This document shows positions 7,747 to 33,595 of a DNA stretch of 64,000 bases, in pieces (the stretch's first letter is position 1; every line of letters starts with the position of its first letter). Made by a program: the position numbers and the translations under genes. The stretch is from Elusimicrobiota bacterium (GTDB taxonomy: Bacteria; Elusimicrobiota; UBA8919). Under the pieces are notes generated by a model. It was not told the DNA's origin. It ran no database searches and was given only the letters and a program-made list of their open reading frames with translations. Where the stretch lies: positions 343,186-407,185 of the forward strand of contig JAQUMH010000001.1 of NCBI GenBank assembly GCA_028718185.1, written 5' to 3'.

Positions 7747-7769
7747 AGTTTTAACCTCCTAATTAGTGT

Positions 7770-7826
7770 CTGTTGAAAAAACCCTCAACAGCCACTGATT
7801 ACATCCATCCCGACGTAACGTCGGGA
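7770..7826. repeat. Two hairpins between the psrA-like and nrfD-like genes
   Basis: CTGTTGA pairs with TCAACAG (7770-7791), and TCCCGACGT pairs with ACGTCGGGA around one base (7808-7826). Downstream, 7838-7920 holds repeated fragments of the type ATTACACAGAT and TGTGTAATC, related to those at 15949-16060. The whole gap is non-coding and looks like clustered dispersed repeats. Confidence 0.55.
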
Positions 7827-7932
7827 CAGGAATTTTGAAAACCTATTACACAGATACATCACTGACATTTAATTTGTGTAATCTCACTTTTAATCTATGT
7901 AATCATAGTTTTTGTGCTTTTTTTAACAAAAG

Positions 7933-9036: not shown

Positions 9037-9060
9037 AATATTTACCTCCCAAAAATAATT

Positions 9061-9873: not shown

Positions 9874-9909
9874 ATATTTAAACCCCCTAATTCAGGGAAA
9901 TATTTACTG

Positions 9910-10503: not shown

Positions 10504-10517
10504 TTTAAATTTCCTCC

Positions 10518-11516
10518 TTATTTTTTTATAATCTTAAGATTTTCTTTCAGACCGGATGAATACAGAATTTTATTCTCCGTGGTCACCATTATTGCTTCTG
10601 CTATAGATGTTTTTTCCACAATATCCATTCCTTTTTCACCTATTACAAAAAGCGCTGTTGACCATGCATCCGCTAATGTCGGATTAGGAGAAATTACAGT
10701 AACACTCATTAATCCTCTTGCAGGATAACCGGTTTTAGGGTCAAGTATGTGGTGATATCTTACACCGTCTTTTTCAAAGAACCTTTCATAATCACCGGAG
10801 GTAGCCATAGATAACTCCGACACTTCAAGAATACCCATAACACCTTCGCCCCTAGGGTTCCTAACTCCTACTTTCCACGGCTTATCTTTCAATTTACCTA
10901 TCGCATAAATATCACCTCCTGCATCTATTAACGCCGATTTTACCCCTGCATTTTTAAGCACTTTAAGTGCTTCCTCCACTGCATAACCTTTTGCAATTGC
11001 TCCAAGATCAATTTTAATATATTTTTTAATTTTTATTAACTTACCATCTTTTATTAAAAGATTTTTATACCCTATTTTCTTTAAACATTCGGCAATATCT
11101 TTTGCTGCAGGTACATGCATATCTTTATCGTAAAAACCCCATAACTTTACCAGAGGATATACCGTAATATCAAAACTACCATTGCTTTGTTCGCTAACCT
11201 GCTGGCATATCTTTATTAAACCAACTATTTCGGGGTCTGAAATAGGAACATCGTTATTATTAAATTCATAAATAGGACTTTTAGGATTTAACGCATTAAA
11301 TTTCCTGTCAATTTCTTCTATCCTATCAAGTGCCTTATCAATAATTTTAAGTACCTCCGTATTTCCCGGAACCTGTATAGCACAGTAAGTATCCATCAGA
11401 AAACGTGTTTGTTTTTGTATCTTTTCTTTATTAAAAAAATTCTTCCAAAGAAAAACTAACGCAAAAAACACAATAAATGTACCTAAAATACCATATGTTA
11501 ATCTTTTGATTTTCAT
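10518..11516 (-). CDS. apbE: FAD:protein FMN transferase (ApbE)
   Basis: ApbE transfers FMN from FAD to a Ser/Thr in target proteins outside the cytoplasmic membrane. The 332-residue protein has an N-terminal membrane anchor (about 8-24), then RFLMDTYCAIQV, DLGAIAKGYAV, DAGGDI and HHILDPKTGYPA, all conserved in the family. Candidate substrates in this window are the adjacent FMN-binding protein and the NqrB- and NqrC-like subunits. It is separated from the upstream porin by a strong hairpin. Confidence 0.95.
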   Translation of the reverse strand: MKIKRLTYGILGTFIVFFALVFLWKNFFNKEKIQKQTRFLMDTYCAIQVPGNTEVLKIIDKALDRIEEIDRKFNALNPKSPIYEFNNNDVPISDPEIVGLIKICQQVSEQSNGSFDITVYPLVKLWGFYDKDMHVPAAKDIAECLKKIGYKNLLIKDGKLIKIKKYIKIDLGAIAKGYAVEEALKVLKNAGVKSALIDAGGDIYAIGKLKDKPWKVGVRNPRGEGVMGILEVSELSMATSGDYERFFEKDGVRYHHILDPKTGYPARGLMSVTVISPNPTLADAWSTALFVIGEKGMDIVEKTSIAEAIMVTTENKILYSSGLKENLKIIKK

Positions 11517-15948: not shown

Positions 15949-16060
15949 TTGGAAAAACCAACAATCCCTGATTACACCTATTAAAAACAAGATTACACAG
16001 ATTAAGGAACTACGGTAGTATCTGTGTAATCATTTTTCAAAATCTGCGTAATCAAGACCG
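15949..16060. repeat. ATTACACAGATTA-type dispersed repeat overlapping a gene end
   Basis: The stretch contains TTGTTGGAAAAACCAACAA (a hairpin) and several copies of GATTACACAGATT or its inverse TCTGTGTAATCA. It overlaps the last codons of the polyprenyl synthase gene (stop at 16002). The same sequence type occurs at 7838-7920. It appears to have inserted at or replaced the 3' end of the gene. Confidence 0.6.
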
Positions 16061-16880
16061 TTGATGACCTTTTCGACGGGCTTATTACATATTCAGCTAA
16101 ATTTTTAAGACCATCTTTATATTCGGAATTGTCCAATATTTCTAAATATTTTATAGCCCTTACGGCATATTCTCTTGCTGTCTCAAGCATATTTATTTTG
16201 GAAGTAATTGTAGCATCACCATCCATATAGTCATCCATCAACTGGTAACTAATCCCAAAATTTAGACCATATTCTTTAAGTGCTAATGTAACTTCTTCGT
16301 TATGTTCATCTATCATTGCTCCACACTGACAACAAACAGCCATAAAACATGCAGTTTTATTTTTTATTATCTCCAAGTATTCTTCTAAAGAAGATATTTT
16401 ATTTCTCAATTCATTTATCTCACCATAACACATTTTTTCTACACAATGAGATAATATTGTCAGCATTTTTTTATCAAATTTATCAGACAAAAGTGAGAAA
16501 GCACGGATATATAACATATCACCTGCCAATACAGCTATTTGATTACCAAACTGTTTATTCATGCTTGGTTGCTCTCTTCGGAAAGAATCATCATCAACTA
16601 TATCATCATGTATAAGAGACGCGCTATGGATAAGCTCAACAGCAGTAGCCAATGGAATTAGTTGATTAGTTGATTGGTTAATTAGTTGATTAGGAGAAAC
16701 TGCTCTTGATGATAGTAAAACCAGTGCGGGTCGGAGACGTTTGCCTGGAACTTTAAAAAAATGGTTAACGATTTGTTGAGAATCTTCTGTCCCGGTAAGT
16801 CGGGACACTACACTTATTAATTCTTTCTCAACCTGAAATAATTCTTTAGATATTGGTTTATAGATTTCCTTTAAGGTCAT
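16002..16880 (-). CDS. Polyprenyl diphosphate synthase (quinone side-chain)
   Basis: A trans-prenyltransferase that builds the isoprenoid chain used for quinones. The 292-residue protein has GKRLRPALVLL, the first Asp-rich motif HDDIVDD and the second motif DDYMDGD. A short low-complexity insert (NQLINQSTNQL) comes from a GATTAGTTGATT-like repeat at about 16657-16700. The final residues (NDYTDTTVVP) are encoded by an intergenic repeat. It overlaps the receiver gene by ATGA and lies in the quinone/nqr operon with a UbiA-type enzyme, so a menaquinone-like role is likely. Confidence 0.9.
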   Translation of the reverse strand: MTLKEIYKPISKELFQVEKELISVVSRLTGTEDSQQIVNHFFKVPGKRLRPALVLLSSRAVSPNQLINQSTNQLIPLATAVELIHSASLIHDDIVDDDSFRREQPSMNKQFGNQIAVLAGDMLYIRAFSLLSDKFDKKMLTILSHCVEKMCYGEINELRNKISSLEEYLEIIKNKTACFMAVCCQCGAMIDEHNEEVTLALKEYGLNFGISYQLMDDYMDGDATITSKINMLETAREYAVRAIKYLEILDNSEYKDGLKNLAEYVISPSKRSSTVLITQILKNDYTDTTVVP

Positions 16881-17311
16881 AAAATATTTTTTCTCCCTCC
16901 AATATTTATCTTTTCTTTTGATAGTTTTAGAAGTTTTTCTACGCGATTCAACAAATCATACGGTTGAACAGGTTTTTCCACGAAATCGTCAACGGGAAGA
17001 AATTCTCCATCTGTCTCCGGGGAAAACGGAAATCCTGTTTTTTGAGTTATAGATGTAATCATCAAAATAGGAATGTACTTTGTCCGTTCGTTTCTTCGCA
17101 GATTTTGGGTTACGTCAAATCCTTCAGTTTCATGGCGCATTATCACATCCAAAATAATTAAATTCGGTTTTTCGGATTCTGCTTTCTCAAAACCTTCTTT
17201 TCCATCATTAGCATAAATAACCTGATATTTTTTTGATTCTAAAACTACTTTCATTGCCTCAATTATATCAAGGTCATCTTCAATAATAAGAACTTTTGCT
17301 CGTTCTATCAT
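16877..17311 (-). CDS. Stand-alone response-regulator receiver protein
   Basis: The 144-residue protein is a single receiver domain. It has acidic residues in IIEDDLD, the phospho-accepting Asp in LIILDVI, Thr in MITSIT and Lys in DDFVEKPVQPYDL. No DNA-binding domain follows. It overlaps its presumed cognate kinase by ATGA. The loop between the Thr and Lys is longer than usual (QKTGFPFSPETDGEFLPV). Without an output domain it may work through protein contact or a phosphorelay. Confidence 0.9.
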   Translation of the reverse strand: MIERAKVLIIEDDLDIIEAMKVVLESKKYQVIYANDGKEGFEKAESEKPNLIILDVIMRHETEGFDVTQNLRRNERTKYIPILMITSITQKTGFPFSPETDGEFLPVDDFVEKPVQPYDLLNRVEKLLKLSKEKINIGGRKNIL

Positions 17312-18684
17312 TTTACCTTCCCAATTTTAGGTAGTGTAAAGGAAAATTTACTACCTTTACCTACTTCACTTTCTACCCAAATATCTCCACTATGAGAATT
17401 TATAATTTGTTTTACAATTGATAATCCAAGTCCTGTGCCATCTTTTTCCATCTGCTCAGCATTTTTTGCTCTATAGAAATCTTCGAAAATATGTGATAAA
17501 TCTTCTTGTGGAATACCAATACCTGTATCTTCAATAGAAACTTGTACAGAATTATTTAATGTTGAATGTGTAATGCGTAACGCAACTTTACCACCCCAGG
17601 GAGTATATTTAATGGCGTTTAGTGTCAAATTAATCAGCAGTTGTTCCATAGCATCAGGATTAGCAGAAATCAAAGTGTTCCCAGCAAAATTTCCTACTGA
17701 TATGGTTAATCCTTTTTCTTCTGCTTTCAGTTTTAGTTGTTCAACTACTTTTATTACTATTTCGGATAAAGATACAGGTTTTTTCTCTATTTCTTTATCC
17801 ACTCTCATTTTAGAAAGGTCTAAAAGATCTTTTACAAAATGTAATAAATGTTGACTGCGTTGTTCAGAACGAGCAATCATTTCTCTTGACTTTTCAGAAA
17901 TTGCCCCTGTTAAATCACTTAAAACAACTTTGAGACAACTTTGAATTGCTGAAAGTGATGACTGTAAATCATGAGATACCGTTAGAACATATTGTGACTT
18001 TAATTTATCTTGTTCTTCAAGCTTCTTATTAACTACTGCAAGTTCTGTTTCTTCCGCTCTTAACCTGTTAACAATAGTTGTTGCAAAATAGATAGTTATA
18101 TATAACGTGGAAATGAAAGTAGAAAATATACCTAACAAATAACGAGGATTTAAATATAATTCTGACCCAACAGACAAAACCGGAAAAAATCCTTCTAAGT
18201 GATAATGAGGTAAAACTCTTAAATATTCTCCTGCAATAATTACTCCTAAAAGAACAACAGCCAGCGTAGCTTGAAAATAAGCTGCCTTATTTGATAAAAG
18301 TATACTTGCAATAACCATATGAAAGATAAAATAAAATATAAAAGGATTTTCCACACCTCCGGAAAAATGAATCAAATAAGCAAGCGCAACTAAATCCATT
18401 AATATCTGAAGTTTAGCAAAGTAGTTAGCTTTCTTAAAATATTGGGTAACTGTACCTTTCTGAAATTCTAATTTGCGGTTATAAATGAAAAATAAAATAT
18501 TATAAGAAAACAATACGATATTACCCGTGTAAAGAGGAATTAATGGTAATTTTATTTCTAATACATATCGTGTAAACGTAATGACAATAAAAACAACAAC
18601 AACAGCAATCCATCTCAAATTAATAAGCCATCTCAAATCGATGGATTGGTTTATCTTTTCTTCGATTTTATTTTCTTTATTCAT
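17308..18684 (-). CDS. Membrane sensor histidine kinase with RegB-like quinone-binding motif
   Basis: A 458-residue kinase with about six transmembrane helices (about 20-215). After a short coiled coil come the H-box VSHDLQSSLSAIQ, N-box NLTLNAIKYT, G1 DTGIGIP and G2 GTGLGLS. In the third helix region it carries FSGGVENPFIF, matching the GGxxNPF heptapeptide that binds quinone in the RegB/PrrB family. It is encoded with nqr genes, a UbiA prenyltransferase and a polyprenyl synthase, so sensing of quinone redox state is a strong inference. It overlaps the UbiA and receiver genes by 4 bases each. Confidence 0.88.
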   Translation of the reverse strand: MNKENKIEEKINQSIDLRWLINLRWIAVVVVFIVITFTRYVLEIKLPLIPLYTGNIVLFSYNILFFIYNRKLEFQKGTVTQYFKKANYFAKLQILMDLVALAYLIHFSGGVENPFIFYFIFHMVIASILLSNKAAYFQATLAVVLLGVIIAGEYLRVLPHYHLEGFFPVLSVGSELYLNPRYLLGIFSTFISTLYITIYFATTIVNRLRAEETELAVVNKKLEEQDKLKSQYVLTVSHDLQSSLSAIQSCLKVVLSDLTGAISEKSREMIARSEQRSQHLLHFVKDLLDLSKMRVDKEIEKKPVSLSEIVIKVVEQLKLKAEEKGLTISVGNFAGNTLISANPDAMEQLLINLTLNAIKYTPWGGKVALRITHSTLNNSVQVSIEDTGIGIPQEDLSHIFEDFYRAKNAEQMEKDGTGLGLSIVKQIINSHSGDIWVESEVGKGSKFSFTLPKIGKVK

Positions 18685-20189
18685 ATAATTTCTTTCAATC
18701 TTAAAAAAGTTTCTTTTTGCCGTATTACAGCTTTATAGTTCCAAACTATGAAAACAGAAGCCAAAAATAAAATAGGTAATAAATATAAATTTCTTAATGA
18801 CAACCAAAGATATGAAATTATGGAGATAACTGATACTATATTGAAACACAAAATTGTAAATCCATTTCCAATAGCCATATCGGATGAATTTGAATGAAAT
18901 TTTTTAGCATATATTACCGATTGAATTGCAAATGGCAGGGAAATTAATCCAAATAATATAATCTTTGGCAAATATCCGGCAATAACTCCTGCTACAAGAA
19001 CTACATAACTACTTATCATTATATATCCAAAAATATTAGCAGATTTTTCTTTACCCAAACGCACTACTTGTGTATTTTTACTTACTTTTTTGTCAGCGGT
19101 ATAATCAGGAAATTCATTTATCAACAGAATTGCAGTTACCAGAATTCCAAGCGGTAAAGATGCCCAGAATACTTCCCATGAAAATGTTCCGGTCTGAACA
19201 TAGTAACTTCCCAATGAAACTAAAACACCAAAATTTAATCCAACTAATAATTCTCCTATACCCTTACTCGCCCAATTGAATAAAGGTGCAGTATAGAAAA
19301 ATCCTGAAATAACACCTATTAATCCCAAAAGAAGCACTGACAACCCACATTTATAAACAAGGTATAACCCTATGCCACTTCCAACAATAAAGAACATTAA
19401 TGCTCCAGTTAAAACCTCAAGAGGAGTCAGTAAACCCATTTGTATCATTCTTGAACCTCCGGAAAAAGGTCGTACAAATTCGTTATTTATTTCATCATTA
19501 CCCGATTTATGGTCAAAATAATCATTTATGATATTTGTTCCAAGGTGAAGAGAAACTGTACCAAGAAGGGCAAGAACGAAATATATAGGATTAAAAATAC
19601 TTTTTTTCACGAATGCAATTGTCGTTCCAAGAAGTACCGGCAAAACGGTAACTGAAAGAAAAGGATATCTTGTTTCCGTTATCCATGCATTAATTTTTTT
19701 CTTAAACCTATCCCAATCAGAAATGGATGTTTGGTTTTGCTCAAATCCAATAACTGTTGGAGATATACCTTGTAAGATATCTTTTACATGGCGAAATTTT
19801 ATCTGTAAAGGTATAATTTTAATAAAAGCAAGCATGTCAAGTTTGTTATATTGTGAAAGTTGTGAAACGACGGGCGAACGTTTAATTAAAAGTTGAACTG
19901 CACACTCTTTATTCTCTTCTCTCACCATTTGTGCATACCCAGTAAGTTCTATTTCTTTATCATCAGGGAATGTATTTCCGGGAATATAAATAAGCATTGA
20001 AACTTCAGACCGTAAGAGTATTTGTTTGGTTTTGGGATCCGTTTTCATAGAAGATAAATAAAAATTAAAGTCGGGTGAAACAGCAAAATGCATCATCCTA
20101 TTTTTAATCTTGATTCCTGAATAGGTAGATACACAACAAATACTTGCCTTATTAATTTCATTCAAAATTTCTTCTTTAGAATTTGTCAT
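18681..20189 (-). CDS. Flavin split-barrel domain fused to UbiA-type prenyltransferase
   Basis: The N-terminal 140 or so residues are a pyridoxamine-phosphate-oxidase-like split barrel (SPDFNFYLSSMKTDPKTKQIL). The C-terminal 310 residues are a UbiA prenyltransferase with Asp-rich motifs NDYFDHKSGNDE and NEFPDYTADK and about eight helices. The UbiA part should prenylate an aromatic quinone precursor, as MenA does. The split-barrel part ends in LQGISPTVIGF, nearly the same tail as the separate protein at 28447-28911. I chose the ATG at 20189, within the last codons of nqrF; 20204 is an alternative non-ATG start. Confidence 0.88.
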   Translation of the reverse strand: MTNSKEEILNEINKASICCVSTYSGIKIKNRMMHFAVSPDFNFYLSSMKTDPKTKQILLRSEVSMLIYIPGNTFPDDKEIELTGYAQMVREENKECAVQLLIKRSPVVSQLSQYNKLDMLAFIKIIPLQIKFRHVKDILQGISPTVIGFEQNQTSISDWDRFKKKINAWITETRYPFLSVTVLPVLLGTTIAFVKKSIFNPIYFVLALLGTVSLHLGTNIINDYFDHKSGNDEINNEFVRPFSGGSRMIQMGLLTPLEVLTGALMFFIVGSGIGLYLVYKCGLSVLLLGLIGVISGFFYTAPLFNWASKGIGELLVGLNFGVLVSLGSYYVQTGTFSWEVFWASLPLGILVTAILLINEFPDYTADKKVSKNTQVVRLGKEKSANIFGYIMISSYVVLVAGVIAGYLPKIILFGLISLPFAIQSVIYAKKFHSNSSDMAIGNGFTILCFNIVSVISIISYLWLSLRNLYLLPILFLASVFIVWNYKAVIRQKETFLRLKEII

Positions 20190-21255
20190 AAAATATTTTT
20201 CCAATGTTCATACCTTTCTTTGTAAGCACTCGTATAGACGCATCTATCATGGGAGTAGGTCCGCACAAATAAGCTTCAGAATTACTTGCATCTTCGATAC
20301 ATTTCTCCATCACATATGTAATCATCCCGGTTTCACCATCCCATTTATCTGAAGCTTTTGGTTCTGAAAGTGCCGGAATATACTTAAAATTAGGATATTT
20401 ATTTTCTATCTCACGCAGTTCCTCAGTGAAAAATAAATCTTTTTTAGACCTTGCACCAAAAAAGTAAACAGCTTTTCTAACCACACCTTTTTCAATTAAT
20501 GCTGAAAGTATTGATTTTATGGGAGCCATTCCACATCCGCCCCCAACAAAAATAATATCTCTTTCCGAATCCTCCTGAAGATAAAATTCTCCAAAGGGAC
20601 CATTTATGTCCAGATAATTTCCTGTATTAAGAACTTCATGCACATAACCGGAACATAGTCCACCAGGTACATGCCTTATTATTAACTCTATCTTATCCGT
20701 CTGCTTAGGAGAAGAACTTATTGAATATGCCCGGTATTCGTCAATTCCCGGCACTTTAATCTGAATATATTGACCGGGTTTAAATTCCACTTTTTGCTTG
20801 GGGTCAAGAGATAAAGTTATCTGCTTGATATCATGAGTTAACTGCTTTATTTCCTCAACTCTCGTATGATATTCTTTTGTACTAAGAAGATATTTTGGAA
20901 ACCATATTTCGATATCATTCTTTACTTTTACCTGACATGCAAGTCTTATTCCTTCCGCTTTCTCATTTTTATTAATGAATACCTCTTCCGTAGGTAAAAG
21001 ATTTCCCGCACCACTTAAAACCTTTACCTTGCAAAATCCGCACGTAGCCTTGCCACCGCATGCCGAAGGAATGAATATTCTACTGGAAATCAGATACGAA
21101 ATCAGGGTATACCCGCCTTTTACATTGAAAACTTTTTCTTTGTTAATTACTATTTTACAGTCACCATAATTAACCAATAGCATCTGAGCTGATGCGAGAA
21201 TAACAGATACTACTAACAATATTAACATGATTACAAGAAGCGGAACAAAATTCAA
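20176..21255 (-). CDS. nqrF: Na+-translocating NADH:quinone reductase subunit F
   Basis: This is the NADH-oxidising entry subunit. It has an N-terminal transmembrane helix, a 2Fe-2S ferredoxin domain (CGGKATCGFC with a later LACQ), an FAD-binding domain (RAYSISSSP) and an NAD-binding domain (VGGGCGMAPI, CGPTPMID). I favour a TTG start at 21255, preceded by GTGAGG; an in-frame GTG at 21282 lies in a repeat. Gene order and the UbiA gene downstream support its place in the nqr operon. No RnfB gene is present, so this is the only NADH/ferredoxin entry module here. Confidence 0.93.
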   Translation of the reverse strand: MNFVPLLVIMLILLVVSVILASAQMLLVNYGDCKIVINKEKVFNVKGGYTLISYLISSRIFIPSACGGKATCGFCKVKVLSGAGNLLPTEEVFINKNEKAEGIRLACQVKVKNDIEIWFPKYLLSTKEYHTRVEEIKQLTHDIKQITLSLDPKQKVEFKPGQYIQIKVPGIDEYRAYSISSSPKQTDKIELIIRHVPGGLCSGYVHEVLNTGNYLDINGPFGEFYLQEDSERDIIFVGGGCGMAPIKSILSALIEKGVVRKAVYFFGARSKKDLFFTEELREIENKYPNFKYIPALSEPKASDKWDGETGMITYVMEKCIEDASNSEAYLCGPTPMIDASIRVLTKKGMNIGKIFYDKF

Positions 21256-21275
21256 GTTAATCCTCACTTCGTTTG

Positions 21276-21330
21276 GAAACACGAATTATCACGAATTTTA
21301 TAAAACCTCACGAATTTATTACAAATATTC
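21276..21330. repeat. CGAATTATCACGAATTTTA-type dispersed repeat in the nqr operon
   Basis: Non-coding sequence between nqrE and nqrF made of repeated CACGAATT units, the inverse of the sequence at 15480-15542. It interrupts an otherwise overlapping nqr gene string. Confidence 0.55.
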
Positions 21331-21338
21331 GTACTTTC

Positions 21339-21926
21339 TTAACCTATTCCAAAGATACCTGAAAAACCCATAAAAGCGAGCGCCATTATACCGGCTATTA
21401 TTAATGTAATACCCCCACCTTTTATACCGTCAGGTATGTCACCGATCAATAGTAATCTTGCTCTTATAGAAGCTATTGATACAATTGCAAGCATCCATCC
21501 GACTGCAGAACCAAAAGAAAAAACTATCGTTTTAATATATGAATAGTTCCTTAACACCATGAATATTGAAATCACCAGCACAATAGAGTTCGCCGCTATA
21601 AGCGGAAGAAATACTCCAAACAATGATTGCAGAGTAGGAAAATATTTTTCCATCACCATTTCAAGTAACTGAACAGTCGCTGCGATTATTATGATAAAAA
21701 CAAGAAAAGAAAAATATTCACTGTGCGTAGGTACAAGTATTAATTTATAAATAGGCCAGTTTATCGCAGATGTAAGTGTCATTACTATCATCACACAGAT
21801 ACCCATACCGAAAGATGTCTTAAGACTCTGCGATAACGAAATAACCGGGCACATGCCCAAAAGGTACGTAAGGGCTATATTGTGCGTGAATATCGCCGCC
21901 AGCAATATTGTTAATAGTTCAGCCAT
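21339..21926 (-). CDS. nqrE: Na+-translocating NADH:quinone reductase subunit E
   Basis: A 195-residue, six-helix integral subunit. NqrE-specific stretches include YLLGMCPVISLS, VQLLEMVMEKYFP, FGSAVGWMLAIVSIASIR and MALAFMGFSGI. In known enzymes NqrD and NqrE each give two cysteines to an intramembrane iron centre. Here Cys26 is present, but the second position reads AANSIVLV, with Ser114 (codon TCT) in place of Cys. Overlap of 8 bases with nqrD suggests coupling. Confidence 0.94.
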   Translation of the reverse strand: MAELLTILLAAIFTHNIALTYLLGMCPVISLSQSLKTSFGMGICVMIVMTLTSAINWPIYKLILVPTHSEYFSFLVFIIIIAATVQLLEMVMEKYFPTLQSLFGVFLPLIAANSIVLVISIFMVLRNYSYIKTIVFSFGSAVGWMLAIVSIASIRARLLLIGDIPDGIKGGGITLIIAGIMALAFMGFSGIFGIG

Positions 21927-22560
21927 GTAATACTCCTATTTTACCAGGGTCTACTTTTGCAAGAGTCCTGACAATCCATAAATATATGCTTAATACGAAA
22001 AATGCTCCCGGCGCCATCCCGATAACAAGACAATTTGTCCAGTTTTCCGGAGTTACCTTAATGTCCAATATTGTGCCAAATCCAAGAAATTCTCTGATGA
22101 CGGCCAATATTATAAGTGTATATGCAAATCCTATACCGGATGCAAAAGCATCAAGCATTGAAAAGTACACCGGATTTTTTATAGAAAATTCTTCGAGCCG
22201 TCCGACAAGTATGCAACTGGTTATTATTAACCCTATATATGGACCCAATGTTTCACTTACTGAAGGATAAAATGCCATCAGGAAACGGTCCACAACAATT
22301 ACAAATGATGATATTATTACCATATATATTATTACACGCGCATTTCTTGGAATATAATTCCTTAGCATGGATATTATGGCTGCTGTTACCACAAGCACAA
22401 AAGTAAATCCCAACCCTATTGCTAACGCATTTGAAACCTTATTGCTTACCCCAAGAGTAAGACACATTCCTAACAATTTGCACGAAACAGGATGGTCTCT
22501 CCATAAACCATTCAGCAGAATCCGGTAAGTCTTTGTATAATATAGCCTCTTTAATTTCAT
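21919..22560 (-). CDS. nqrD: Na+-translocating NADH:quinone reductase subunit D
   Basis: About 213 residues with six helices. IPRNARVIIYMVIISSFVIVVD and GLIITSCILVGR match NqrD rather than RnfE. Cys33 (LLGMCLTLG) and Cys116 (IITSCILVG), the ligands of the intramembrane iron centre, are both present. I chose the ATG at 22560, just past the nqrC stop; the open frame upstream (to 22599) lies inside nqrC. Confidence 0.94.
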   Translation of the reverse strand: MKLKRLYYTKTYRILLNGLWRDHPVSCKLLGMCLTLGVSNKVSNALAIGLGFTFVLVVTAAIISMLRNYIPRNARVIIYMVIISSFVIVVDRFLMAFYPSVSETLGPYIGLIITSCILVGRLEEFSIKNPVYFSMLDAFASGIGFAYTLIILAVIREFLGFGTILDIKVTPENWTNCLVIGMAPGAFFVLSIYLWIVRTLAKVDPGKIGVLHG

Positions 22561-22567
22561 TGTAATT

Positions 22568-23143
22568 TTAGTTCCCTCTATAAACTGACAGCTTTTCACT
22601 TATCTGGGTGTTAAGTATCTTCTCAAACGCCTTGCACGTCATAGTAGCCCCCGTAATCCCATCCACTTCATTGTCTTTTTCTGCCTTAACTCTGTTCACA
22701 ATATTTATCCGAGGTAAAACAGTTTTATTATGGAACTTTTGAAGATATTTTTCGTTGGCTAATTCCCCGCCTAATCCGGGCGTTTCTTCCTGATGAATTA
22801 TCCGGATTTTCTTTATTGTCTTTAGATCGCTGAATAACGAAATTACAGCCTTTATAGGACCCCATAACCCGGAACCTGACAATTCAAAAGCTATATCCTT
22901 ATTTTTTAGGACATAGAAATTTACAGATCCTTTTTTTATTACCTTTATATTATCCGAAAATATTTTTTCCACTTCGTTTTTTTGGAAAACCATATTCTGG
23001 GCTTCCAGCACGGTCTTTTGTATCATCAGATTATTGTTCTTGATTATAAGCGGTTCAGTAAAGTGATTAACGGTAACAATCACCGTGGAAAGAACTCCAC
23101 CCAACACCAGAATGAATAGTATCATAAAAATAGTATTTTTCAT
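22568..23143 (-). CDS. nqrC: Na+-translocating NADH:quinone reductase subunit C
   Basis: NqrC is a periplasmic flavoprotein with an N-terminal membrane anchor (about 4-28) and an FMN-binding domain. SGSGLWGPI and HQEETPGLGGE are family motifs, and VDGITGATMT contains the Thr that receives FMN by ApbE action. The ATG at 23143 overlaps the nqrB stop (ATGA). The frame is open further upstream inside nqrB, but that part does not resemble the family. Confidence 0.93.
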   Translation of the reverse strand: MKNTIFMILFILVLGGVLSTVIVTVNHFTEPLIIKNNNLMIQKTVLEAQNMVFQKNEVEKIFSDNIKVIKKGSVNFYVLKNKDIAFELSGSGLWGPIKAVISLFSDLKTIKKIRIIHQEETPGLGGELANEKYLQKFHNKTVLPRINIVNRVKAEKDNEVDGITGATMTCKAFEKILNTQISEKLSVYRGN

Positions 23144-24174
23144 CTTCTTAAATTTCTGTACTTGAACCCAATTATCGTACTGTCTATTAACGGAGTAAAT
23201 GTATTCATTAATATAATGCTGAACATTACTCCTTCTACGTAGCCGGAAAAACTCCTTATTATTACTGTCAGTAATCCACATAATAGTCCGAAAATGTATT
23301 TACCTTCCTTAGTGAAAGGAGAAGTTACAGGGTCCGTCGCCATAAATAATGCTCCAAACAACAGTCCACCGGATAATAACTGAAACAGCGGCGGAGCAAT
23401 CTTCTCCGGAATAAAATGACTGCCTATTAAAGACATTATCAAAACTGACGCCAGATATGAAAAAGGAATCCGCCAATTGCTTATTTTTGTTAAAATCAAA
23501 AATATACCGCCAAATATCAATCCGATACGGAAAGTCTCTCCTATACTTCCCGCTGTTTTACCCAACAGTAAATCTGAGTAATTCGCAATTATGTGGGAGG
23601 ACTTATAGAGTATTAGAGGTGTTGCAGATGCAATCGCATTTATGCCCGGATCCTGAAAATGCAGGCTGGTCAGCGAAGGAAAGGATATCGTTATAAACAA
23701 CCTGCCGACAAGTGCCGGATTGAATATGTTCCTTCCTGTACCACCAAATACTTCTTTTCCGAAAAATGTTCCAAAAAATATACCCACAGCAACCACCCAG
23801 AGTGGTACGGTGGACGGAAGCGTCAACGCAAAGATAAGACCGGTAACCAAAAACCCCTCTTCTATCTCTCTTTTCCTTATTATTGCAAATAGCACTTCAA
23901 CTAAACCTCCGGCAAGATATGACACGGCTATTATCAGTACCGCTTTTAAACCGTAATAATATACACCCGCCAGTGCCGCCGGCATAAGAGCAATAACTAC
24001 CACACTCATGAATCTCTTGATATCAATACCATCTGCAATATGCGGCGCACCTATCGTAACATCGCCAGTTCCATAAATGGATGCATCTAAAGCAACCAGA
24101 ATAGGCTTCAATGCAGACGCAGCCTTGTTTTTCTCAGTAAATCTAAATCCTATATCCATAATCTTTCTAATCAT
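23140..24174 (-). CDS. nqrB: Na+-translocating NADH:quinone reductase subunit B
   Basis: A 344-residue polytopic subunit. HIADGIDIKRFM, PLWVVAVGIFFGTFFGKEVFGG and GRNIFNPALVGR match NqrB better than RnfD. The covalent-FMN segment reads GSIGETFRIG, with Thr in the expected GET position. It starts two bases after the preceding gene's stop, so the two are tightly linked. The N-terminus is short compared with classical NqrB (about 410 residues), as in compact homologues. Confidence 0.93.
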   Translation of the reverse strand: MIRKIMDIGFRFTEKNKAASALKPILVALDASIYGTGDVTIGAPHIADGIDIKRFMSVVVIALMPAALAGVYYYGLKAVLIIAVSYLAGGLVEVLFAIIRKREIEEGFLVTGLIFALTLPSTVPLWVVAVGIFFGTFFGKEVFGGTGRNIFNPALVGRLFITISFPSLTSLHFQDPGINAIASATPLILYKSSHIIANYSDLLLGKTAGSIGETFRIGLIFGGIFLILTKISNWRIPFSYLASVLIMSLIGSHFIPEKIAPPLFQLLSGGLLFGALFMATDPVTSPFTKEGKYIFGLLCGLLTVIIRSFSGYVEGVMFSIILMNTFTPLIDSTIIGFKYRNLRR

Positions 24175-24175: not shown

Positions 24176-25663
24176 CTATTTTATCCCTTTATATTCTTTA
24201 AGACCTTTTAAATCGAAAAATGGCATTATACACTGCGAACTGTCGCATCCCATTAGAATAAGTTTCTCCTGACCATCTTTAATAGATTTTGCCAGTTGTA
24301 TCTTTGATGGACATACAAAGCTGCAAAGATTGCATTCTATGCATTTAAATATTCCATAATTCATTAACCGCTCATCAATAAGATTGTTTACTATGTGATT
24401 GTATAGAAAATGCGGGACAATTTTTACCGGACAAACCTCTTCGCAAAAACTACAGGCTATGCAATGTCTTTTCTCACCACGAATATTAGTGTCCAGGGTC
24501 TTATTAAATATTGGAAATAGAGATGAAGCAAAAGTTCCTGAATACGAATGCTCTTTAAATCCGGGTCTTATAAAAGACAGCATCTTGCGGACTTTATTTT
24601 CCGGAACTGCGATTAGATGTGAAAATGTCCTGTTTATAGGTAACGAAAAATCATTTAACACTACCCCTGTTAACAGACTATTCAATATTATCCTGTATTC
24701 CCTGTCCTTTTTCAAATATTCCGCAATTATATATTTAAGCGGTGTTCCGACACGGACTTTTATATGAGTATTCTCTTTCCAGCCCGAACCACAGAGTGCA
24801 ATCGTACGTTCTATTAGCGGGTATCCTTCCGCAACAGCATGATATGCTTGCAGGACCGCCTGAATGTTTAAAACCACAACACCTATACTCGCCGCTGAAT
24901 AACCGTATGGGAATTTCTTTCTGAGAATAGTCGGGATAAGCACCTCATCATATCCCTGCGGGTATTTCGGTTCCAGAAGATGGATTTCTATCCAATCGTA
25001 ACTTGCTGTAAGTTTCATTATCTCTTCTATAAGTTTCTTTTTATATCTGCTTAAAGCAACATGAACCTTTGCCTTTGGCATAATTGTTTTTAGTATCCTT
25101 AATCCTTCCACAAAATGCAGTATCTCCTTGCCTCCAAGCAATACTGTAAGTGAAAGGTTGTGCGGCTCTGAACCGACACCGTGAACAATTATGCTTTCTA
25201 CTTCTTCCGAAGAAATTATCGAACTTTTGTACATTGTCGGCATACCTTCCCTGTCAAGAGATGATACACCGGAAAAATAAAGTAATTCCTCTATTTTGGA
25301 TTTTTCGAGTTTTGACCAGTCAGAATTATATCCATCTAAACGTTCTATGCCGTCTGTCCTATCGGATATTATTCTTACAAATGTAACTTCCCGTTTAAAA
25401 TAATTTTGTTTCTTTATTTCTTCTACTACCCCGTTAACAGATGAGTGGATGGGACTTGATACCGTGTTGTTATCTATCCCTATAATCTGTCCTGCTTTAA
25501 CTAATTCTCCAATTTTTACTAATGGAATCACTTCATTGCCAAAACCCTGCTGTAGTGGAATAAGAACTTCGGGCGGAACTATAAATTTTTCCGCCATGCC
25601 TTCAGGCTGACCTTCGTATTTCACGAATTTATAACCACCTGGAAATGTTTTATTTTTTATCAT
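24176..25663 (-). CDS. Nqr A-position subunit resembling RnfC, with two 4Fe-4S motifs
   Basis: The gene occupies the nqrA position, but the 495-residue product looks like RnfC. It has a barrel-sandwich start (PLVKIGELVKAGQIIG, SPIHSSVNGVV), a central Rossmann-like region (SIGVVVLNIQAV, GYPLIERTI) and two intact ferredoxin motifs, CIACSFCEEVCP (C401-C411) and CIECNLCSFVCP (C441-C451). Classical NqrA lacks functional clusters. Two more cysteines (C473, C478) lie near the end. It is the first gene after a sigma54 promoter. I leave the symbol empty because nqrA and rnfC are both defensible. Confidence 0.85.
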   Translation of the reverse strand: MIKNKTFPGGYKFVKYEGQPEGMAEKFIVPPEVLIPLQQGFGNEVIPLVKIGELVKAGQIIGIDNNTVSSPIHSSVNGVVEEIKKQNYFKREVTFVRIISDRTDGIERLDGYNSDWSKLEKSKIEELLYFSGVSSLDREGMPTMYKSSIISSEEVESIIVHGVGSEPHNLSLTVLLGGKEILHFVEGLRILKTIMPKAKVHVALSRYKKKLIEEIMKLTASYDWIEIHLLEPKYPQGYDEVLIPTILRKKFPYGYSAASIGVVVLNIQAVLQAYHAVAEGYPLIERTIALCGSGWKENTHIKVRVGTPLKYIIAEYLKKDREYRIILNSLLTGVVLNDFSLPINRTFSHLIAVPENKVRKMLSFIRPGFKEHSYSGTFASSLFPIFNKTLDTNIRGEKRHCIACSFCEEVCPVKIVPHFLYNHIVNNLIDERLMNYGIFKCIECNLCSFVCPSKIQLAKSIKDGQEKLILMGCDSSQCIMPFFDLKGLKEYKGIK

Positions 25664-25717: not shown

Positions 25718-25733
25718 TGCAAAATACCTGCCA
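25718..25733 (-). promoter_or_regulatory. Sigma54 (-24/-12) promoter of the nqr operon
   Basis: On the minus strand TGGCAGG-TATT-TTGCA matches the sigma54 consensus TGGCACG-N4-TTGCA, with GG and GC exactly ten bases apart. It lies about 55 bases upstream of the first nqr start codon and faces it. An NtrC-type activator gene is encoded directly upstream. Confidence 0.78.
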
Positions 25734-25926: not shown

Positions 25927-27267
25927 CTATTTAATACCGTATTCCTTAATTTTCTGCCAAAGAGTTTTCCGATTTATACCTAATATATCAGCTGCTTTTT
26001 CTTTCTGCCAGCCAGTGAACTCTAAAACCTTAACAATATGTTCTTTTTCTGTTTCTTGTAAGGCTTTCTGCAATGTAGTTGCTGTCCATTTTTTCTTTTC
26101 ATTAAAAACAGGTGGTAAATCTGCAGGCAAAATTTCATCTTTTATGAAAATAGTGATTAATCGTTCTATTAAATGTTGCAACTCTCGAATATTTCCCGGC
26201 CACTCATAATGCAACATTAGTTGCAATGCATTAGGCGAAATCTTAATGTTTTTATCTGTTTCACGATTGTATCTATCAAGAAAATGTTTTACCAGGAGAG
26301 GAATATCTTCTTTTCGTTCTCTTAAAGGAGGAAGAAAAACAGGAATAACATTCAACCGATAATAGAGGTCTTCACGAAATGTTCCTTTTGATATCGTTTC
26401 CTGCAGATTGGGTCTACTGGCAGCAATAATACGCACATCAACTTTAATGGTTTTGGTTCCACCTACTCTTTCAAATTCCTTTTCCTGAAGAATACGAAGA
26501 AGTTTTATCTGAATTGCAGGATTCATATTATCAATATCATCCAGGAATAATGTTCCTTCGTGTGCTAATTCAAAACGACCTATTCTTTTATTTATAGCAT
26601 CGGTGAAAGCTCCTTTTTCATGACCAAATAACTCACTCTCTAAAAGAGTTTCCGGTAAAGCAGCACAATTAACTTTTATTAACGGTTTATCCTTCCGTTG
26701 GCTTAGATGATGAATTGCTTCTGCCACCAATTCTTTACCTGTTCCGCTTTCACCTTGGATCAGAACTGTAGCATTACTGGGAGCAACCGTTTCAATTAAA
26801 TCATAAATTTTCTGCATTGATTTACTTTTACCGATAATGCTACATAATTGGTAACGATGATTTAACTCTTTATGAAGAAGTACATTTTCCTGTTTAATAC
26901 TTTGAAATTCGAGGGCTTTATTTATAAGTAAAACTAATTCTTCAGAAAGAAAAGGTTTTGTAATATAATCATATGCACCAACCTTCATTGCCTCTACTGC
27001 TGTCTCAACTGTTCCGTAACCGGTCATTATAATCGCCATTGTTTCAGATGAAAATTCTTTTATTTTTTTTAATAAGGTAATCCCATCCATTTTTGGTAGT
27101 TTTATATCTAATAATACCAAGTCAAAACTTGATTTCTGAAATTCTTCGTAACCACTAAATCCATCAGTAGCAACTGAAACTTCATAACCTTCTTTAACTA
27201 ACAAATCTCTAATCATACCCAACATTAAATCATCATCTTCAATAATTAAAATCTTTTTCTTAATCAT
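25927..27267 (-). CDS. NtrC-family sigma54-dependent response regulator
   Basis: A 446-residue protein with a receiver domain (1-120; phospho-Asp in LVLLDIKLP), an AAA+ domain (Walker A GESGTGKE) and a C-terminal Fis-type helix-turn-helix (AADILGINRKTLWQKIKEYG). The sigma54-contact loop reads GAFTDA rather than GAFTGA, a variant I regard as tolerated in the family. Walker B is FLDDID instead of the usual FLDEI. It overlaps its kinase gene by 8 bases and lies directly upstream of a sigma54 promoter, its likely target. Confidence 0.93.
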   Translation of the reverse strand: MIKKKILIIEDDDLMLGMIRDLLVKEGYEVSVATDGFSGYEEFQKSSFDLVLLDIKLPKMDGITLLKKIKEFSSETMAIIMTGYGTVETAVEAMKVGAYDYITKPFLSEELVLLINKALEFQSIKQENVLLHKELNHRYQLCSIIGKSKSMQKIYDLIETVAPSNATVLIQGESGTGKELVAEAIHHLSQRKDKPLIKVNCAALPETLLESELFGHEKGAFTDAINKRIGRFELAHEGTLFLDDIDNMNPAIQIKLLRILQEKEFERVGGTKTIKVDVRIIAASRPNLQETISKGTFREDLYYRLNVIPVFLPPLRERKEDIPLLVKHFLDRYNRETDKNIKISPNALQLMLHYEWPGNIRELQHLIERLITIFIKDEILPADLPPVFNEKKKWTATTLQKALQETEKEHIVKVLEFTGWQKEKAADILGINRKTLWQKIKEYGIK

Positions 27268-28402
27268 CGGTTTTTATAGGAAAAGCAATAGTAACTGTTG
27301 TTCCTTTTCCTTCCTCACTTTTTATTTTTATTGTTCCTCCGTGAATTTGAATGATATTGTAACTAACAAAAAGCCCCAGACCAGTACCTTTACCAACTTC
27401 CTTATCCGTATAAAATGGATCAAATATCTTATCCAATTTTTCCTCTTTAATCCCTTTCCCATTATCAATAAATTTTATTTCTGTTTCTTTTCCATTAGAA
27501 TCTGTTTCTATTTTCAAAATTCCATCAATATGAAGAGCATCAATTGCATTGTTTATTATATTAATAAATACCTGTTGTAACTGATGTGAATCAGCTAAAA
27601 TGTCCGGTAATGTGTTGTTTAAATTTAATACGAGCTCGATTTTTTGGTCTAATAATTTATGTTGCACAAAAGGTATCGTATCTTTAATCACTTGGTTAAT
27701 ATTAACAGACCCAAGTTCGCATTTTTGATGTCCCGAATAATTCAGAATCTGTTTAACAATGTTTTCAATTCTAAATAATCCTTTTAATGTTAATTCTATA
27801 TATCCTTTATTTTGTCCTTTGATTTCCGGATTTGCTAATGTGGCACGAACATAATTTATAATAGCACCTAATGGATTATTAATTTCATGGGCGATACCAG
27901 CAGAGAACTGTCCTATACTCGCCATCTTAGCAGATTGAATCAGTTGTGTCTGCATACTGCGGATTTCATGGGTCCTCTCATCCACTTTCTTTTCTAAATC
28001 ACTTTTTGCTTCCTCTATATAATTTTTAGACAACATCAATTCTTCACTTTTTTTATCTAATTCTTTTAACATATATACACTGGTAAGTTTAAACTCTGTC
28101 ATTCGCTTATTTGTTTCCTCAAGTTGTTCTGTTCTTTCAAGTACTTTTTGTTTATATTCTTTAAATTGGATTCCTATCAGAGAAAGCGTTTCTATTGAAT
28201 CTTTCTCTTGGAAATTTGTTATGAATACCTTGCATTTGATACAAGCTTCCATTTTTTCTAACCAAGTCTCTTGAATTTCGTTGTGACAATGCGTCCCACA
28301 TTGTAACCAACAACGCAAGTCACTTGATTGGTAAGCTGAACATTCTTTCTTACTACATTTATAATATTCCCAGCATTTCAAAAGATTTTTTATTTGTTGC
28401 AT
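27260..28402 (-). CDS. Cytoplasmic sensor histidine kinase with Cys-rich N-terminus
   Basis: The first 60 residues contain eight cysteines (KCWEYYKC, ECSAY, RCWLQCGTHC, ACIKCKVF), resembling the so-called two-CW module found in various signalling proteins. A metal or Fe-S centre or a redox role is plausible but unproven. A coiled coil (about 75-150) leads to the H-box AHEINNPLGAI and ATPase motifs NNAIDAL, DNGKGI and GTGLGLFVS. No transmembrane segment is seen. I chose the ATG at 28402, after AAGGAAAAA. It is the probable partner of the adjacent sigma54 activator. Confidence 0.9.
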   Translation of the reverse strand: MQQIKNLLKCWEYYKCSKKECSAYQSSDLRCWLQCGTHCHNEIQETWLEKMEACIKCKVFITNFQEKDSIETLSLIGIQFKEYKQKVLERTEQLEETNKRMTEFKLTSVYMLKELDKKSEELMLSKNYIEEAKSDLEKKVDERTHEIRSMQTQLIQSAKMASIGQFSAGIAHEINNPLGAIINYVRATLANPEIKGQNKGYIELTLKGLFRIENIVKQILNYSGHQKCELGSVNINQVIKDTIPFVQHKLLDQKIELVLNLNNTLPDILADSHQLQQVFINIINNAIDALHIDGILKIETDSNGKETEIKFIDNGKGIKEEKLDKIFDPFYTDKEVGKGTGLGLFVSYNIIQIHGGTIKIKSEEGKGTTVTIAFPIKTDD

Positions 28403-28446
28403 TTTTTCCTTATATAATAAGTTTGTTGATGACTTTTTCAACGGTC

Positions 28447-28911
28447 TTATAATTCTAAAACCGTAGGAGATATTCCTTTCAAAGCTTCACCATAAAGTCT
28501 GAATCTGACAATTTTAGGAATAAGTTTTATTAAATCAAATTGTCCGGTAATACCTGACTCTGAAGCTACATCAGCGAATGGATTACGCTCTTTTAGCCGT
28601 TCTATAGCATGATTTATTTCTTCTGTTTGTCTCAGAAGTGCAGCCTCCCCATCAATTTCAACTTCCCATGAATTATCATATGGGTCTTCTAACCCAAATA
28701 CAAGAAATGATACATTTGAAGAAGATAGAATCTGTTCTATCTTTGGGCTATCTTTCATGGACATAAGATAACAATTAAACTTGCTATCCACCCCATAATA
28801 CATAACTCTTAATCTTACATATTTTGAATCTTTATCCAATGTCCCAAGAATACCCACAGTTTTTTTCTCCAAACGAAAAAGGATTTCCCCTACTCCATGT
28901 TTTTCATTCAT
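28447..28911 (-). CDS. Flavin split-barrel (pyridoxamine oxidase-like) protein
   Basis: A 154-residue protein with the FNCYLMSMKDSPKIEQIL pattern of the pyridoxamine-5'-phosphate-oxidase-like split barrel, likely binding FMN or a related cofactor. Its C-terminus, LKGISPTVLEL, closely matches the end of the split-barrel domain fused to UbiA at 18681-20189, so the two look paralogous. It lies upstream of the kinase/activator pair and downstream of bioA. Its function is unknown; a redox or ligand-sensing role with the kinase is conceivable. Confidence 0.8.
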   Translation of the reverse strand: MNEKHGVGEILFRLEKKTVGILGTLDKDSKYVRLRVMYYGVDSKFNCYLMSMKDSPKIEQILSSSNVSFLVFGLEDPYDNSWEVEIDGEAALLRQTEEINHAIERLKERNPFADVASESGITGQFDLIKLIPKIVRFRLYGEALKGISPTVLEL

Positions 28912-28955: not shown

Positions 28956-30296
28956 TTACTTAATGTTTTTTATTACATCAAACATTTTATCTAGAATAAT
29001 AGTCATTTCATATCTTTTTATAGATAATGGTAAATAAAGATATATAACGTTACCAAGAGGACGCAAAATAATTCCTTTTTTAATTCCTTCTTTATAAATT
29101 TTCATTCCTATTCTCTCTTCAAAAGCAAACGGTATTTTTGTCTTCTTATCTTTAACTAATTCTATCGCGCCAATCATACCGATATATCGCACATCTCCGA
29201 CAAAAGCAAGCAGCCTGAATTCTTCCATTCTTCTATGGAAAATCGGAATTAGATTTTTAATTCTGAATAACGTATTTTCTTCTTCAAATATTTCAAGGGA
29301 TGCCAAAGCTGTGGCACAAGATATTGGATTTGCTGTGTATGTATGTCCATGATAAAATGTTTTCTTTTTCTCATAATAATCATAAAATCCAGAATATATT
29401 TCATCGGTCGTAATTGTAACTCCAAGCGGTAAATATCCGGAAGTTATACCTTTTGAAATACACAGAAAATCAGGTTTTATCTCCGTATATTGGTAAGCAA
29501 ACATCTTTCCTGTCCTACCAAATCCAGTTGCAACTTCATCAAGAATAAGATGAATTTTATATTTTTTACATAATTTATATGCCTTTATAATATATTCCTT
29601 CGGATAAATAATCATACCGCCGGCTGCCTGTACTAATGGCTCAATAATAAAAGCAGAAATCTCATTATGCTTATCTTTTAATAATTTCTCTAATTGCACT
29701 ATGCAGTCGATTTTACATTCATTTATTCCCTTTTTCACATGACACCTGTAACAATATGGCGAAGGAACTTTATATGAATCAAACATAATATCCGAGAAAT
29801 TTTCATTGAACAACGAAACATCACTTACACTCATAGCACCAACAGTATCTCCATGATAACTATTCCCAAGATGAACAAATTTCTTCTTTTGTTTTTGTCC
29901 GGTATTTTTCCAGTACTGTAGCGACATCTTCAATGCTACCTCAACTGAAGTAGAACCATTATCTGAGTAAAATACTTTCCTAAGGTCTGTATCGGAAACA
30001 AGAGAAATAAGTTTTTCCGACAGCAATATTGCCGGTTTATGTGTAAACCCTGCGAACAAAACATGGTCAAGTTTATCAATCTGTTTTTTAATAGCAGCTT
30101 TGATTTTTGGGTGATTGTGTCCATGGATATTGCACCACCATGAAGAAATAGTATCATAATACATTTTCCCGTTTGTCCCATATAATTTAATTCCTTTCGC
30201 TCTTTCAATAACAATAGGAGGATTTACATCATGGTCCTTCATCTGAGTATACGGATGCCATATATATTTTTTATCTTTTTCCAATAATTTATCCAT
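28956..30296 (-). CDS. bioA: Adenosylmethionine-8-amino-7-oxononanoate aminotransferase
   Basis: BioA converts 7-keto-8-aminopelargonate to 7,8-diaminopelargonate with SAM as amino donor and PLP as cofactor. The 446-residue protein begins KYIWHPYTQMKDH, a BioA hallmark. It has SYHGDTVGAMSVS, LDEVATGFGRTG and the PLP lysine in CISKGITSGYLPLG. It is the last biotin gene in transcription order and overlaps bioD by 8 bases. The window therefore encodes all steps from pimeloyl-ACP methyl ester to biotin. Confidence 0.97.
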   Translation of the reverse strand: MDKLLEKDKKYIWHPYTQMKDHDVNPPIVIERAKGIKLYGTNGKMYYDTISSWWCNIHGHNHPKIKAAIKKQIDKLDHVLFAGFTHKPAILLSEKLISLVSDTDLRKVFYSDNGSTSVEVALKMSLQYWKNTGQKQKKKFVHLGNSYHGDTVGAMSVSDVSLFNENFSDIMFDSYKVPSPYCYRCHVKKGINECKIDCIVQLEKLLKDKHNEISAFIIEPLVQAAGGMIIYPKEYIIKAYKLCKKYKIHLILDEVATGFGRTGKMFAYQYTEIKPDFLCISKGITSGYLPLGVTITTDEIYSGFYDYYEKKKTFYHGHTYTANPISCATALASLEIFEEENTLFRIKNLIPIFHRRMEEFRLLAFVGDVRYIGMIGAIELVKDKKTKIPFAFEERIGMKIYKEGIKKGIILRPLGNVIYLYLPLSIKRYEMTIILDKMFDVIKNIK

Positions 30297-30963
30297 GTAA
30301 TATTTTCTTCCCTATTTTCCTAAAATTATTTATTAATTTATTTTTTGATCTTTCTTTCTTCATTATTCCGAGAACTTTAATTCCGGAGATTTTTTCTATA
30401 ATATCAGGATTATCTTTTAAAATGGTTTTTTTCTGTTTTTGAAAAATATTATTAAAAATAAGTCCGATAATTCTTATGTTCCTTCTCTTTAATGAATCAA
30501 TTGTTAAAAGTGTGTGATTTATGCAGCCCAGTTTATTCCCTACAACAATTATTACCGATAAATTAAGTTTCTTAACCAAATCAATACTTAAATACTTTCC
30601 ATTAAACGGAACCATTATCCCACCGGTCCCCTCAACAATTAAAAAATCATATTTTCTGCATAATTTATTAAAACTTTCAATTATTTTTTTTATATTTATT
30701 CTTCTGCCTTCAAGTTTTGCCGCTAAATGTGGTGAACCTGGGAATCTAAAACAATATGGAAGTGAATATGAATGGAAATTAACATCAGTAGAGTGAAAAT
30801 AGTGATGCGCAACATCGCTTTCAAGGAGAGTTTTTGTACCTGTCTGAACCCATTTTTGTGTTATTACACTATACCCTTTTTTTGTAATGTACTGATACAG
30901 TAAACCGGTAATCATTGTTTTACCTACACCAGTATCTGTTCCGGTAACAAAAATCACGCTCAT
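30289..30963 (-). CDS. bioD: Dethiobiotin synthetase
   Basis: A 224-residue ATP-dependent carboxylase. VTGTDTGVGKTM is the BioD P-loop, and VEGTGGIMVPFNG and VVGNKLGCINHTLL are conserved ATP and substrate segments. QKWVQTGT corresponds to the usual QKPVQTG loop, with Trp replacing Pro. It overlaps bioA (8 bases) and bioC (ATGA). Length is normal. Confidence 0.95.
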   Translation of the reverse strand: MSVIFVTGTDTGVGKTMITGLLYQYITKKGYSVITQKWVQTGTKTLLESDVAHHYFHSTDVNFHSYSLPYCFRFPGSPHLAAKLEGRRINIKKIIESFNKLCRKYDFLIVEGTGGIMVPFNGKYLSIDLVKKLNLSVIIVVGNKLGCINHTLLTIDSLKRRNIRIIGLIFNNIFQKQKKTILKDNPDIIEKISGIKVLGIMKKERSKNKLINNFRKIGKKILHG

Positions 30964-31733
30964 TTTATTCCATTACAAAAATATATTTGATATGTAGCGA
31001 TAATTTGCCCAAAGATTGATCTATATTTCTGTTCTATTTTCTTTAAAACTTCCTGTGTTAATCTGAACTCACCATTTATACCATTCCCTCGTGTTCCCGT
31101 ATATCTTATTTTATTCAGAAAATCCATTAGTGAATGATATTTTTCTATTATTATAACTTCTTTAATACTAACTTTCATAAAATATCTTTTTAAAATTGCC
31201 TCTATTTTTTCTTTTTCCAAAAAGTTCTTAGAATTGATTTGAATATCATTACTTAATGTTTCTCTTATGGACATATTCAATTCCTTAAAAGTCAAAGGAC
31301 CGAAAATAGAAAACGAAATGACACCTCGTTCCGCAAGCGAATTACTATATTTTACTATCGTATCTTCTATATTTTCAAACCATTGAAAAGCTGCATTTGA
31401 AGTAATAATATTGAATTTATGATTATTTAGGTCTATAGTTTCTGCATCATCAACAATAAAACCTATTTCGCTATCCTTCAATTTCTGTCTTGCGACTTCA
31501 ATCATCTTCTCTGATATATCTATTGCTTTTATGTTCGCATTCTTATATTCTTGTTTTAAAATAGTTGTGTAATTGCCAGTACCACAACCCACTTCCAGAA
31601 TATATTCTGCTCTTCCCTTCTCCGACAACAATTCTTTTATAAGTATACCTGCTGCCATCTGCTGAACATTAGCATATTCGTCGTAAACGGTTGCATATCT
31701 TGAGAAATTCTCTATTATTTTATTTTTGTTCAT
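30960..31733 (-). CDS. bioC: Malonyl-ACP O-methyltransferase
   Basis: BioC methylates malonyl-ACP to start pimeloyl synthesis. The 257-residue protein has IIENFSRYATVYDEYANVQ, a characteristic BioC start, then EVGCGTGNYT (SAM motif I) and ITSNAAFQWFENIEDTI. It lies between the esterase and bioD with ATGA-type overlaps on both sides. C-terminal length is normal. Confidence 0.93.
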   Translation of the reverse strand: MNKNKIIENFSRYATVYDEYANVQQMAAGILIKELLSEKGRAEYILEVGCGTGNYTTILKQEYKNANIKAIDISEKMIEVARQKLKDSEIGFIVDDAETIDLNNHKFNIITSNAAFQWFENIEDTIVKYSNSLAERGVISFSIFGPLTFKELNMSIRETLSNDIQINSKNFLEKEKIEAILKRYFMKVSIKEVIIIEKYHSLMDFLNKIRYTGTRGNGINGEFRLTQEVLKKIEQKYRSIFGQIIATYQIYFCNGIK

Positions 31734-33578: not shown

Positions 33579-33595
33579 ATTTTTAATTTCTAATT

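Follow-up and report, generated by a model that had tools for sequence, protein, structure and literature searches.

A probable deep-branching Na+-NQR-type operon with two [4Fe-4S] motifs in its NqrA-lineage subunit

Within a 64,000-nucleotide stretch of an Elusimicrobiota contig (JAQUMH010000001.1; the whole stretch analysed, hereafter the window), we identified a six-gene operon that probably encodes a deep-branching Na+-NQR-type NADH:quinone oxidoreductase, in which NqrA, judging from its residues, would have lost its FMN/NAD site first and kept both [4Fe-4S] sites. The operon seems to be a surviving offshoot of the stage at which NQR arose out of an older, ferredoxin-using Rnf. Its genes follow the nqr order A-B-C-D-E-F, with an NADH/FAD/2Fe-2S reductase of the NqrF type, and the RnfB ferredoxin subunit is absent from the operon. 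The genes, and the parts of subunit A that bear on this reading, lie as follows:

24176..25663, minus: subunit A, assigned to the NqrA lineage, with two [4Fe-4S] motifs (ORF, profile scores, alignment, tree)
25226..25270, minus: degenerate Gly-rich FMN/NADH loop of A, SGVSSLDREGMPTMYK in place of AGIVGxGGAxFPTHVK (alignment with RnfC)
24464..24628, minus: segment of A, residues 346-400, common to NqrA and missing from RnfC (alignment)
24431..24463, minus: Cys motif 1 of A, C401-C411, invariant in three orthologues
24311..24343, minus: Cys motif 2 of A, C441-C451, invariant in three orthologues
23140..24174, minus: NqrB-type subunit bearing the quinone-site residues and N-terminal extension of NqrB (alignment)
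22568..23281, minus: NqrC-type FMN-binding subunit with a TGATMT flavinylation motif (profiles)
21919..22599, minus: NqrD-type membrane subunit that has both of its [2Fe-2S] Cys (profiles, alignment)
21339..21926, minus: NqrE-type membrane subunit, second [2Fe-2S] Cys replaced by Ser (alignment)
20176..21282, minus: NqrF-type NADH reductase with 2Fe-2S, FAD and NAD domains (profiles, F tree)

The first gene of the operon, A, encodes a 495-aa protein with Pfam matches to RnfC_N (6e-15), Complex1_51K (7.5e-14) and a dicluster Fer4 domain over residues 399-455, along with a weak, sub-threshold match to NQRA_SLBB. Among NCBIfam models, A scored 245.4 bits with rnfC (cut-off 245.95) versus 116-186 with nqrA, and B reached 274 bits with rnfD, over the cut-off. 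C, D, E and F each matched the respective nqr model best, yet below cut-off (for F, 285 bits with TIGR01941, slightly under the cut-off of 295), and every subunit from A to F fell under the cut-offs of the nqr equivalog models. The solved chains (PDB) closest to A by sequence were RnfC first and NqrA after, and an AlphaFold model of A, built from three sequences, had a pLDDT of 41, too low for it to be of use. Taken alone, the profile scores of A and B point to RNF, which explains why a sequence-only reading of this DNA had described A as RnfC-like; that description holds for the domains and clusters, but not for the extra NqrA segment with its quinone-pocket Arg, nor for the FMN/NADH loop. 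The same reading took B to F for NqrB-F, which agrees with the nqr gene order, the NqrF-type reductase and the lack of RnfB, except that B by score is an rnfD. The NQR-type identity of A and B is shown only by residue-level and tree evidence, against their profile scores.

Around the FMN/NADH loops, 5 of the 20 positions conserved in 17 RnfC sequences are kept in the three A orthologues and 15 are lost, with GxGGAxFP replaced by SLDREG(M/I)P and NxxECEP likewise gone in all three. Between the core and the first Cys, the A lineage has 55-56 residues, NqrA 55-57 and RnfC 19-22. In NqrA this extra segment contributes part of the quinone pocket, of which W337 and R372 are neighbours (PMC12779168); the A segment keeps the equivalent of R372 (Vibrio NqrA) and has Phe at that of W337, as do some Bacteroidota NqrA. 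The NqrA-type segment with its pocket Arg, together with the decayed FMN/NADH loop, leads us to assign A to the NqrA lineage, and the best reading of its sequence is that A would be a member of this lineage with ancestral clusters, its FMN/NAD site having been lost first, rather than an RnfC that had been joined to an NQR.

The cluster motifs are intact, as the sequence-only reading had observed: C401, C404, C407 and C411, and C441, C444, C447 and C451, form two complete CxxCxxCxxxC motifs. All eight Cys are invariant across A and two independent orthologues, which is not attributable to chance since only 251 of the 495 positions are invariant three-way. Positions conserved in the 17 RnfC were kept in all three A orthologues at 10 of 13 sites in the Fe-S domain and at 13 of 18 in the N-terminal barrel. 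Possession of both motifs is not common among NqrA orthologues: none of the nine aligned NqrA in our sample has them, nor does the later-added L159. A classical NqrA from a complete operon in Elusimicrobiota genome G223 (L110, contig C11) carries F,S,Y,C,C,C,C,C at the eight ligand positions. In the usual two-cluster ferredoxin pattern, the ligands of cluster II are the first three Cys of motif 2 and the fourth of motif 1, and L110 keeps exactly this set (the equivalents of C411, C441, C444 and C447), with Cys 1-3 of cluster I gone. Retention of ligands is graded, from eight in RnfC and eight in the A lineage (without the FMN site) to one cluster's four in L110 and 0-2 in other NqrA, and because L110 has exactly one cluster's four, cluster loss appears stepwise. 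The best reading of these alignments is that A has lost neither of the [4Fe-4S] sites present in the ancestor that RnfC and NqrA share, with cluster binding predicted.

Residue-level evidence also bears on the membrane subunits. At the quinone site, B carries K54, G140, G141, E144, E157, G158 and F159 (Vibrio numbering); the combination of K54, G140, E157, G158 and F159 is present in 3 of 3 A-lineage orthologues and 9 of 9 NQR, and in none of the 16 RNF and 12 NqrBCDEF complexes without A (hereafter A-less) that were aligned. E144 is conserved in every group and is therefore not diagnostic, and we take G140 of NqrB to be a quinone-site residue. Apart from G140, the residue list comes from PMC12779168. 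The N-terminal extension of B places 53-56 residues ahead of the KRxM Met, compared with medians of 23 in RNF and 10 in A-less complexes. The [2Fe-2S] ligands of D and E are four Cys in both orthologous loci (L034, L038) and three Cys plus Ser in the window, where residue 114 of E is Ser (TCT, 21585-21587); it is Cys in all 39 other aligned D/E-bearing complexes, both orthologues included. This one-base change may be either an error in the metagenome-assembled genome (MAG) or genuine.

In the A, B+D+E and F trees alike, the operon formed a separate clade, placed to the NQR side of RNF without falling among the sampled NQRs, in keeping with the earlier suggestion of an evolutionary intermediate; A itself fell between RnfC and NqrA, and thus not inside the sampled NqrA. 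The sampled NQRs were from Bacteroidota, Alpha- and Gammaproteobacteria, one Elusimicrobiota and two members of the phylum of genome G341, so that a position outside crown NQR holds only against these groups. In the B+D+E tree, RNF, NQR, the A-less complexes and the A-bearing lineage were each a single group (100/100), the last three stood together against RNF (100/100), and the core subunits did not branch with RnfD/E/A. A D/E tree rooted by the D-E duplication nested this NqrF-bearing set (A-bearing lineage, NQR and A-less) inside RNF (100/100, 100/98), and the F tree united all NqrF in a single clade against monooxygenase reductases (96/98). The branching order within the set is not firm: with Ilyobacter added, the A-bearing lineage split first of the three in the B+D+E tree (97/94), AU tests of the alternative orders gave p-values of 0.052 and 0.056, and D and E disagreed on the order in the duplication-rooted tree. 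The A-less complexes form one clade beside NQR. Five-gene NqrBCDEF sets without A were seen at L124, L126, L143-L149, L151 and L152 (phylum of G341) and on the Ilyobacter polytropus plasmid pILYOP01 (L153), and such complexes have already been reported from Thermotoga thermarum/lettingae and C. ultunense (PMC4148951, PMC5924567).

The same operon occurs in two other MAGs, with A identities of 66% and 57%. Subunit A was found in 2 of 341 genomes of the host phylum, namely the host and an Endomicrobia MAG (CALJEJ01, G053); the 57% identical third copy lies in a MAG named 'Armatimonadetes' (JABMPU01), 1 of 125 genomes of its phylum. These counts cover two phyla; a contig scan with poorly suited peptide patterns returned only two loci, and nothing of this type was found in viral contigs. 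All three genomes share a block in the order regulator-A-F-MenA-kinase-regulator-synthase, where A-F is the whole operon, and its conservation points to horizontal transfer of the module. Each of the three also holds separate RnfC or RNF genes; in the host genome, a second RnfC-like ORF of 680 aa (L035, contig C16, 6796-7857) lies apart from the RNF operon of that contig. Around the operon, the window contains the following features:

27260..28441, minus: AtoS-like sensor kinase, upstream of A
25927..27267, minus: NtrC/AtoC-type sigma-54 response regulator, upstream of A, with orthologues in the related loci
25718..25733, minus: sigma-54 promoter-like site TGGCAGGTATTTTGCA, one mismatch, 55 bp upstream of A (sequence match)
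18681..20204, minus: MenA-type prenyltransferase, adjoining the operon in all three genomes
17308..18684, minus: sensor histidine kinase, conserved in the block
16877..17311, minus: response regulator, conserved in the block
16002..16880, minus: polyprenyl diphosphate synthase, conserved in the block
10518..11516, minus: ApbE flavin transferase (covalent FMN attachment), further downstream

Sigma-54-like sites with one mismatch also lie 21 and 48 bp ahead of A in the two orthologous loci, and the make-up of the block suggests a naphthoquinone-based respiratory chain under regulatory control. Markers of both menaquinone head-group pathways (MqnA/D-type PF02621 for the futalosine route; MenB) had no match in the host genome, so the quinone must either be scavenged, be made by prenylation of imported DHNA, or be of an unusual kind; with MenA and a polyprenyl synthase but neither PF02621 nor MenB, the host is possibly a DHNA scavenger. 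The MenA-type protein has an extra N-terminal domain of ~165 residues that by eye resembles a PNPOx-like protein at 28447-28911. Positions 4030-11516 of the window encode TatC, a PhsA/Arr-like molybdoenzyme, NrfD/DsrP, a QrcC/DsrO Fe-S protein, an exported FMN-binding protein and ApbE; together these make up a putative periplasmic terminal reductase tied to the quinone pool. Upstream of the block, a biotin synthesis run (bioA-bioD-bioC-bioH-bioF-bioB-like, by eye) spans 28956-34522.

By homology, NADH would be oxidised by F (FAD, 2Fe-2S), from which electrons would pass to the [2Fe-2S] cluster of D/E, the FMN of C, and the FMN and riboflavin of B; the terminal acceptor would be a naphthoquinone in the B/A pocket, with pumping of an ion that is presumably Na+. 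Counting against the reading as a quinone-reducing NQR are the scores below the nqr equivalog cut-offs, the two menaquinone marker families that had no match in the host genome, the Ser at one [2Fe-2S] ligand of E, and the loose branching order. The A clusters are probably still within riboflavin's reach, as in RnfC, and since A has no FMN beyond them, a side pool or relay is expected; the main competing view is that they are a structural relic. We tentatively propose, at somewhat less than even chance, that they serve as a one-electron side pool or relay beside the quinone site and not as an outlet to NAD+ or ferredoxin. A stem-lineage NQR in which they provide a second, functional branch that carries electrons from riboflavin to quinone or another cytoplasmic acceptor is a slightly more doubtful proposition. 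That the clusters are instead relics or serve structure alone, being bound in an inert scaffold without redox activity during turnover, is similarly unlikely, though far from negligible. Classical NqrA is cofactor-free with no direct function assigned (PMC12174285), and L110 sits in a complete operon despite having lost one cluster, both of which fit inertness; against it, all eight Cys are invariant at 57-66% identity, and the riboflavin-adjacent site in RnfC, as judged from RNF structures, makes reduction likely if the clusters exist.

The remaining explanations fare worse. In an RNF/NQR hybrid, A would act as an RnfC with FMN, clusters and NAD+ or ferredoxin chemistry, F bringing in NADH; the near-cut-off rnfC score, the rnfD score of B and the RnfC chains heading the PDB matches favour it, but both FMN/NADH motifs are lost in all three orthologues, taking in NADH only to hand its electrons back to NAD+ would be futile, and the decayed loop, the absent RnfB and the quinone-site residues of B led us to reject a scheme that was improbable overall. 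The sequence-only proposal of a hybrid using both NADH and ferredoxin is likewise not supported, because ferredoxin is an unlikely donor without RnfB and RnfC-type clusters lie on the output side of the complex. Recombination could have swapped the C-terminal domain of an NqrA for the ferredoxin domain of an RnfC, for which the RNF operons in the same genomes offer donors; such a regain has little in its favour given that RnfC-like residues run all along A, as in the N-terminal barrel, that the NqrA-type segment extends to the first Cys, and that the operon falls outside the sampled NQRs in the B+D+E tree and, independently, in the F tree. An assembly or binning artefact fusing rnf and nqr genes is scarcely credible: each of the three sources is, or could be, a draft genome or one derived from a metagenome, but a fusion is contradicted by the recurrence of this operon, with its flanks, in three genomes at 57-66% identity.

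Reviews describe NqrA as devoid of cofactors (PMC4014512, PMC12174285), and we found no report of NqrA with Fe-S cluster motifs in the open-access literature searched. In the published scenario, RnfB was lost, RnfC then underwent decay of its FMN, NAD and Fe-S sites, and NqrF was recruited last (PMC4014512). An NqrF and a quinone site beside intact Fe-S motifs conflict with this order of Fe-S loss before NqrF; the order offered here is that the FMN/NAD site was lost, the quinone site gained, and the clusters then lost singly. If the stem-lineage reading is true, NqrF recruitment and the quinone site would precede Fe-S loss, reversing the published order. Structural papers leave the role of NqrA open, and the complex encoded here would be an enzyme in which that purpose could be probed spectroscopically.

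Compared with known systems, subunit A shares with RnfC (PDB 7ZC6, 9ERI, 8AHX), whose clusters receive electrons from riboflavin (PMC12174285), the two CxxCxxCxxxC motifs and the overall fold domains, but unlike RnfC it lacks the FMN/NADH site residues and has the NqrA-type segment, in an operon with no RnfB and with a quinone site in B. The A-less NqrBCDEF complexes have a similar NqrF-driven core and lie near the A-bearing lineage in the B+D+E and F trees, but their operons lack A, and the quinone-site residues of NqrB are missing from their B subunit. L110 keeps the ligands of one cluster versus two in A and is otherwise part of a classical NQR. Na+-NQR itself, for example that of Vibrio cholerae (PDB 8A1U, 7XK3), resembles A-F in gene order, NqrF donor module, NqrB N-terminal extension, quinone-site residues and the NqrA segment with its pocket Arg, whereas its NqrA is cofactor-free and A has eight Cys and lies outside the sampled NQR clade. 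With all eight cluster Cys present, the operon would thus encode a variant NQR and not a classical member.
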